Part shown: positions 39,001-43,983 of the stretch, piece by piece | Numbering within the stretch: position 1 is the stretch's first letter | How the letters are laid out: each line of letters opens with the position of its first letter | Assembly: GCF_002775205.1 (NCBI RefSeq) | Contig: NC_036453.1 | Coordinates: 15,189,594 to 15,253,593, forward strand | Direction: 5' to 3' | Source: Xiphophorus maculatus | Lineage: Eukaryota; Chordata; Actinopteri; Cyprinodontiformes; Poeciliidae | DNA: 64,000 nt | The notes under the pieces: generated by a model | Seen by the model: the letters and a program-made list of their open reading frames with translations, nothing else | Databases searched by the model: none | What the model was told of the DNA's origin: nothing | Translations under genes and position numbers: made by a program

Positions 39001-42000
39001 ATGACGCCTCCCGTTATCAACTGCACCATGTGACCTCTGACCTTTACCTGCAGCCACTGCATCCAGCAGATCCTGGAGGCGGTGCTTCACTGTCATCAGA
39101 TGGGCGTGGTCCACCGAGATCTTAAGGTATCATACCACACAAATGTTATGGAGAAAACTGGAAAATGAAAAGAGTCTGATCTTTGGTCAGCAGCCAGAAA
39201 TATTCTGATGGGTTTAAATTGTTACTGGTCCTAGAAACTCCCAGGAGCTCCGTTAGCATGGCTAGCTAACGGAGCTCCTGCTACTGTTAAAAAATTGACA
39301 GAATTAGCATTGTTAGCACCAACCATTTAAACCAGTGGGCAGAGTGAGCATTGTTAGCACCAACCATTTAAACCAGTGGGCAGAGTGAGCATTGTTAGCA
39401 CCAACCATTTAAACCAGTGGGCAGAGTGAGCATTGTTAGCACCAACCATTTAAACCAGTGGGCAGAGTGAGCATTGTTAGCACCAACCATTTAAACCAGT
39501 GGGCAGAGTTAGCATTGTTAGCACCAACCATTTAAACCAGTGCGCAGTTAGCATTGTTAGCACATGTGCTCTGTGTCTCCAGCCAGAGAACCTGCTGCTG
39601 GCCTCCAAGTCTAAAGGAGCGGCGGTGAAACTTGCCGACTTCGGCCTCGCCATCGAGGTGGAGGGCGACCAGCAGGCCTGGTTTGGTGAGGCAGTCCTGA
39701 CTGTAGTACTCAGATTACTTTTACTGAAACTTTATCATCCCTTCATGCTTCATTTGGTCCAAGTACTCTGTGTTGTTGTTGTTGTTATGAATGCACATTT
39801 TGTTTATTCAGTCTTAGCTCTAGGGTTTTTAACAAATTTAGATTTTAGTTTATATTCTGTTTATTTGGCTTTTTTATTTCAGAAATATTGTCAAAATAAT
39901 AGTAAGAGTAATTTCCCTGCTGGGATGAATAAAGTACTTCTATTCTACTCTATTCTAAAATTATTTTTATTGTTTAATTTTGTTGTATTTTTATTATAAA
40001 ATAAAAATGAGACCTGTTATATAAAATACAGGTTTAATTTTTACTTTACTGTCTTCCTCAACATGTTTTCTGTTTTCTCTTCTTATTTTCTAACTCCATA
40101 AACAACAGAGCATTTTCACTACCAAGCTGGCTGGAGCTTAGCAACCAGCCCAGTAGCCATGGTAACTGCGTGCAGCAGATGTTGTCTCTGGTGTAGCTGT
40201 GTAGTTTCCTCTGTGTGTTTGCAGGCTTTGCGGGAACTCCAGGCTACCTGTCTCCAGAGGTCCTGAGGAAGGACCCATACGGGAAGGCGGTGGACCTCTG
40301 GGCCTGCGGTCAGTCTCTCCTCATGTCTCTGTGTTGGTCACATTCAGCTGATCCGCTGCATTCTGGGTAAACGCGGCGTTTCTGATCCTCAGGCGTGATC
40401 CTCTACATCCTGCTGGTGGGCTACCCTCCGTTCTGGGACGAAGACCAGCACCGCCTCTACCAGCAGATCAAAGCCGGAGCCTACGACGTAGGTCACATGA
40501 TTCGCTGTGAAGTCATCGACACGGAGCACTGCGGTTGGTCAGTCTGCTCTCCTTGCCTCCTAGTTTCCTTCCCCGGAGTGGGACACGGTGACACCCGAAG
40601 CCAAAGACCTGATCAACAAGATGCTGACCATCAACCCGGCCAAACGCATCACCGCCGCTGAGGCGCTCAAACACCCCTGGATCTCTGTGAGTGGGGGGAG
40701 TGTTGGAAAATGATAGTGGTGCTTGATTAGGATGAAGATGATAATAACAATGAAAATGTTGGTGATGATGACAATGATGATGATGATAACAATAGTGATG
40801 ATGATAACAATAGTGATGATAACAATGTCGATGATGACACGACCTCTTCCTCCCAGCACCGCTCCACCGTGGCTTCCTGTATGCATCGCCAAGAGACGGT
40901 TGAATGTTTGAAGAAATTCAACGCCAGGAGGAAGCTGAAGGTGAGGATTTTCACAATAAAGTGACAGGAAGTGATGTCACAGGGGTCGGCTGCTGAAGAT
41001 GCAGTTTCTGCTTCTGTCCTGCAGGGGGCCATCCTGACCACCATGCTGGCCACCAGGAACTTCTCCGGTAAGCTGATCAGAGGTCAGAGGTCAGGCTGGA
41101 GGCCACAGGGCTCCTCATTGCCTGTGAGGCTGGCAGGTCATGACCTTTGCACTGCAGGCTTATGTTTCAGTAGCTGGAGCCTTAAAGAAATCTACCAATC
41201 AGCTGCCAGCTTTACACACAGTTAGCGGGTTAGCACTGTGTGTGTGTGTGTGTGTGTGTGTGTGCATGTGCAGCTGCTGTGGTCTAAAGATAGCAGGAAG
41301 GGAATCCCCCTCCAGGCTCCCAGTCCTCCCAGTCCCTCCAGCTGGACCAATCGTGTCCAGCCATCTGCACATTCTCAGTACAGATCTGAGAAGGAGCTGC
41401 TGCTGCACAACTTCCGGTTCTGCTGGTTTTACTGGTTCTGTTGGACCACCTCTTGTGCAGCGCAGCGCCCCCTGCTGTTACTTTGCTCTCTGATAAAAAC
41501 TGAACATTATTCAATATTGAAGTTTCGTTTTAGAGAATAAAGTCTTTCACCCCGCAGCCAGTAGGTAGGGTGGGGTCAGAAGGTCAAAGGGTCACCAGGT
41601 TCTCAACAAGCTGGGCTTTAATCTGACCAGAAAGTCTCAGGTTCGGACTACAAATCCTCCCATGATGCATTTCTCCACCAGAGTCATCGGATCGTCTCCA
41701 AGCTGCTTCTGCTCTCTGCCAACCGTACCGTGTGATCAGTACCGTCTGATACGGGCCAGGTCCAGAACCAGGCCTGAAGGTCCAGATGCTCAAACAGCTG
41801 CGGCTCAGAATATCAGGAACTATAAAACCAGAACCGGACCCGTTCTGGTGTAAGCAGCAGAACTGGACCTGTCAGCAGCTGGCTCTGTGAAAGCAGGCTG
41901 GTGGAGATCAAAGGTCAGGCGCGCTCTGTGCAGCAGAACCGGACCGGGTCGGGCCCTCAGGAATGTGCCGGGCTCTGCTGCTATCTTAAGTTGCTCCTAA

Positions 42001-43983: not shown

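Follow-up and report, generated by a model that had tools for sequence, protein, structure and literature searches.

Intron 12 of the camk2a gene of Xiphophorus maculatus carries a reading frame that, joined to exons 13 to 17, probably encodes a fish alphaKAP: a predicted protein in which a hydrophobic membrane anchor replaces the kinase. This predicted protein is most likely the fish counterpart of a known mammalian product, and not a new kind of protein. Like mammalian alphaKAP, it would come from the same gene as the kinase, retain the association domain without the kinase and begin with a hydrophobic N-terminus.

Mammalian alphaKAP is described in an excerpt of PMC5882894 as arising from an alternative promoter, lacking the kinase domain and possessing the complete association domain. 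PMC9913510 refers to it as a splice variant with a lipid tail as the anchor. Two further reports state that alphaKAP promotes acetylcholine receptor stability (PMC7916148), and that its transcripts are highly abundant and are not distinguished by commercial Camk2a primers (PMC8155201). In a search of the literature on alphaKAP in combination with zebrafish or fish, made in a collection that omits many relevant journals, no fish alphaKAP is described in the excerpts of PMC5882894, PMC7916148, PMC8155201 and PMC12037915.

The camk2a locus

The window, that is, the whole 64-kb stretch of DNA that was analyzed, corresponds to C11:15189594-15253593 in the X. maculatus genome. Sixteen camk2a exons were placed by motif on its plus strand, from position 31975 to a stop codon at 43735. 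Exon numbers are those of an earlier note on this DNA; exon 1 is not among the 16 motif-located exons. Judged by its sequence, the host gene is camk2a, as that note had proposed. In the Protein Data Bank, the last exon has CaMKII alpha entries as its top matches (the best is 1hkx, E = 7.8e-45), and CaMKII alpha chains are the sole matches of the short linker exon, exon 13, at a nonsignificant E of 0.32. Matches to the CaMKII hub occur at seven loci genome-wide, of which the camk2a locus is one.

Intron 12 (41068 to 42192, plus strand, phase 1) has a GT donor after TTCTCCG and a CAG acceptor before exon 13. That exon (42193 to 42233, plus strand) encodes a 14-residue linker and has its donor at 42234. 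The normally spliced junction of exons 12 and 13 is the same as in solved CaMKII alpha, RNFSGGKSGGNKK. Exon 14 (42309 to 42357, plus strand) contributes 16 residues, as judged by spliced translation. The association domain (PF08332) begins in exon 15 (42483 to 42558; E = 4.5e-4), continues in exon 16 (43332 to 43426; E = 1.0e-7) and ends, together with the stop codon, in exon 17 (43503 to 43735; E = 8.1e-35), all on the plus strand. A (TG)n run at about 42412 to 42479, directly before exon 15, makes up most of the visible acceptor region of that exon.

The window also contains two reading frames of the AIG1 GTPase family, at 5666 to 6592 (PF04548, E = 5e-62) and 8020 to 8670 (E = 2.8e-49), which we take from their resemblance to be GIMAP-like. 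Pieces of an ADAMTS-like gene are present at 54710 to 55228 and 63271 to 63606 (reprolysin propeptide, E = 7.5e-19; a weak ADAMTS cysteine-rich match, E = 1.8e-4). A WW-domain frame on the minus strand at 17713 to 18150 (E = 1.6e-7) may belong, again by resemblance, to an Fe65-like gene.

The predicted anchor frame and its product

An ATG at 42108 to 42110, 85 bases upstream of exon 13, lies within intron 12 in a good Kozak setting (gcgATGG, with G at both -3 and +4). Upstream, the first in-frame stop is a TGA at 42078; downstream, the frame is free of stops across the acceptor AG (42191 to 42192) as far as the exon 13 donor. Its first 28 codons (42108 to 42191, plus strand) specify a mostly hydrophobic peptide, the predicted membrane anchor, whose top 19-residue Kyte-Doolittle mean is 2.77, and translation then passes in frame into the GGKSGSNKK of exon 13. 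The first glycine codon of exon 13 here starts with the last base of the intron, and this codon, GGA, is identical whether that base is supplied by intron 12 or by exon 12. The earlier note had described just such a hydrophobic run of 28 residues leading from an intron 12 ATG into the linker, and our analysis bears this out. The region given in that note started at 41940 solely in order to cover the presumed promoter.

When the anchor is joined to exons 13 to 17 over GT-AG introns, the predicted product comprises 192 amino acids (21.6 kDa) and ends at 43735. It consists of the anchor, the linker and the complete association domain (PF08332, exons 15 to 17), with no kinase. Full-length CaMKII alpha shares exons 13 to 17 and the association domain with the predicted product, which differs in lacking the kinase and regulatory segments and in having the anchor.

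Comparison with mammalian alphaKAP

In mammalian alphaKAP, the fusion occurs at GGKSG, and the anchor is encoded directly upstream of the acceptor; it has 25 residues, the final codon of which fits a CAG acceptor. The frame, position, fusion point and kinase-less architecture put forward for the fish product hold up. The anchors themselves differ in length (25 residues in mammals vs 28 in the fish), and their residues are not significantly alike, in agreement with the near-complete difference in residues claimed in the earlier note. A gapped alignment of the two anchors finds LLF, A-x-VP and FL in common, and this similarity is nonsignificant: scores at least as high are obtained with 754 of 5000 shuffled fish peptides in local alignment and with 1726 of 5000 in global alignment. 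The anchor residues therefore provide no proof of descent, and the case rests on position and architecture.

Mammalian alphaB has a nuclear-targeting exon of the KKRK type. No KKRK-type segment occurs in any forward frame of the 75-bp intron 13 of the fish gene (42234 to 42308), so that the mammalian exon has no visible equivalent in that intron.

Evaluating the frame against chance

Splice acceptors carry pyrimidine tracts, and codons with T at position 2 specify hydrophobic residues. Acceptor tracts are thus hydrophobic by default, and the frame needed to be tested against this expectation. The corresponding alternative is that an ordinary acceptor happens to have a long polypyrimidine tract without stops and an ATG in phase, and that the hydrophobic peptide is never made. 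As a null, we collected YAG sites on both strands of the window and of 180 kb of CaMKII loci from the X. maculatus genome; these sites are acceptor-like and are not proven acceptors. The main filter required at least 75% pyrimidines in the near 21 bases and at least 65% over 81 bases. A frame was counted when an in-frame ATG opened 20 to 45 residues with a hydropathy of at least 2.0 or, more stringently, at least 2.77. The anchor tract itself has 76% pyrimidines in the near segment, which would miss a strict cut-off of 80%, and 80% over 81 bases, which makes the 65% long-tract cut-off of the main filter a rather permissive one.

Among the 537 acceptor/phase pairs that pass the main filter, 51 have an ATG frame, and four of these frames reach 2.0 but none 2.77. 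With the near-tract filter alone, 174 of 1797 pairs have an ATG frame (seven at 2.0 or above, none at 2.77), and under strict cut-offs (80% near, 75% long), eight of 87 do (one and none, respectively). The unfiltered set of 47517 pairs yields 3664 ATG frames, 90 of them at 2.0 or above and two at 2.77 or above: one is the anchor frame itself, viewed from a YAG that lies 16 bases farther downstream, and the other is a CVCV simple-repeat frame at 62758. If the alphaKAP hypothesis is taken to fix the frame and acceptor in advance, a hydropathy of 2.0 is reached by chance in about 0.4 to 1.1% of cases (7/1797, 4/537 and 1/87), which is good but not conclusive support.

Shuffling gives a less favorable picture. 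Dinucleotide shuffles of the 81 bases of the anchor tract reach 2.0 in 5301 of 20000 cases (26.5%) and the observed 2.77 in 208 of 20000 (1.0%); the corresponding numbers for plain shuffles are 2551 and 66 of 20000. Because shuffled versions of the tract are often hydrophobic, the hydropathy of the anchor is due partly to the tract itself, and this result speaks for chance, as does the failure to detect homology between the fish and mammalian anchors. Against it stand the scarcity of equally strong frames at filtered acceptors and the placement of T within the codons. The 27 codons after the ATG have 9, 18 and 10 T at positions 1, 2 and 3 (hypergeometric p = 0.007 for position 2), and an equal excess at position 2 is found in four of 237 open filtered frames. 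Moreover, the frame was found in the one intron, and in the one frame, that alphaKAP predicts. What is unusual is the combination of tract length and richness, absent stops, an in-phase ATG and position, all together. A bare splice-acceptor artefact is thus an unlikely source of the anchor frame, and we assign to chance a minor share of the overall probability, roughly that of a one-in-five outcome.

Other CaMKII exons and searches for further copies

Comparison with other exons of the family also weighs against chance. We surveyed 49 other CaMKII exons, 15 of them in the window besides the target and 34 within 30 kb upstream of the six paralogous hubs. These exons were found with a list of motifs and are a subset of all exons in the seven genes; a duplicate row (41031, equivalent to the exon at 41025) was dropped. 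The last 70 residues per frame were considered, and motif starts served as proxies for exon starts, so that lengths may be off by a few residues. In the coding frame, none of the 49 reaches a hydropathy of 2.0; three have an ATG that opens at least 19 residues, with a best hydropathy of 1.37. Hydrophobic open frames that lack an ATG are present at other CaMKII acceptors, for example on contig C5 at 17928.

Three of the six paralogues, on contigs C22, C8 and C5, yielded the counterpart of the linker exon, and a comparable anchor frame is absent from these three. Their linker frames are open for 20, 20 and 10 residues, respectively, before the searched motif, and only that of C8 includes an ATG, at 17 and 16 residues. 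Searches of the fish's own genome (704 Mb, 101 contigs) found no DNA match besides the camk2a locus, and the protein sequence of the anchor plus exon matches only this locus at E values up to 10. Scans with a hub-exon pattern gave no confirmed relatives among 20 matches in a collection of viral contigs or among 167 matches in a general collection of genome contigs.

The putative promoter and predicted muscle expression

The presumed 5' UTR and transcription start region (41966 to 42107, plus strand) contains no ATG, and the previous ATG is at 41963. A transcript starting within this region would therefore meet the ATG at 42108 first. The earlier note had M-CAT and CArG-like motifs preceding this ATG. 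The M-CAT part stands, in that an exact CATTCCT is present at 41959 to 41965 on the minus strand, one of 18 such sites in the window. The CArG part needs qualification: the CArG consensus has six A/T, and the site at 41996 to 42006 on the plus strand (CCTAAATTTGG) has seven and is noncanonical. It is one of five sites with six or seven A/T in the window. The two motifs are 37 bases apart and form the sole such pair within 60 bases in the window, in a comparison for which the motifs were picked after the sequence had been seen. We found no MEF2 match in intron 12 and no TATAWAW match in 41850 to 42107. The GC content is 0.64 in the latter interval vs 0.52 in 41067 to 41849. The motifs and the ATG-free leader fit a putative internal promoter; one exact M-CAT site and one noncanonical CArG-like site are weak evidence that such a promoter would be muscle specific.

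This thin motif support leaves some room for a different account, in which the intron 12 transcript is real but serves another tissue or purpose, for example as a hub-only product in brain, and in which the anchor acts somewhere other than muscle membranes. We regard this account as very improbable. Mammalian alphaKAP is mainly a muscle product according to excerpts of PMC9913510 and PMC5882894, and PMC4378002 includes camk2a, with a value of 1.98 (presumably a fold change), in a table for the fast muscle of exercised zebrafish. This last signal is at the level of the gene and cannot separate the kinase from alphaKAP, and it is thus consistent with, but not specific to, expression of the predicted product in muscle.

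Proposed mechanism

For the predicted fish alphaKAP, we infer transcription, muscle specificity, membrane insertion and hub co-assembly as follows. Transcription would begin in muscle within camk2a intron 12, at about 41966 to 42107. Given a start inside the intron, the exon 13 acceptor would go unused, and an upstream-extended exon 13 would form the first exon. Translation from 42108 would then yield an N-terminal membrane (signal) anchor, with the linker and the whole association (hub) domain behind it. For the full-length transcript, the bases of the anchor codons act as the intron 12 polypyrimidine tract.

The topology of the anchor was assessed from established rules, rather than by a predictor. 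No charged residue occurs ahead of R27, and the hydrophobic stretch is followed by the positive residues R27, K31, K36 and K37; the hub is therefore predicted to be cytosolic. By the same kind of rules, the hydrophobic stretch, at about 22 residues, would be long for a cleaved signal peptide. The anchored hub may co-assemble with full-length CaMKII subunits and so tether holoenzymes to a membrane, which, by analogy with mammals, would be the sarcoplasmic reticulum of muscle.

A broader proposal, which we consider possible at somewhat less than even confidence, is that alphaKAP is common to fish and mammals and dates at least to their common ancestor. All that has been conserved of the anchor would be the hydrophobic character of the exon 13 polypyrimidine tract when translated, and the anchor may have been born from the splice signal. 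Because the splice signal and the anchor would then be the same bases, the tract would maintain hydropathy while the residues drift freely.

Implications

If the predicted alphaKAP is real, a kinase-anchoring product that the cited papers describe for mammals would be present in fish as well, and camk2a reads from fish muscle need not signify the kinase. The product would also become accessible to zebrafish or medaka genetics, for example by altering its ATG, a site that is not part of the coding sequence of the kinase. Finally, the frame would be an example of a splice acceptor tract that doubles as a membrane anchor.
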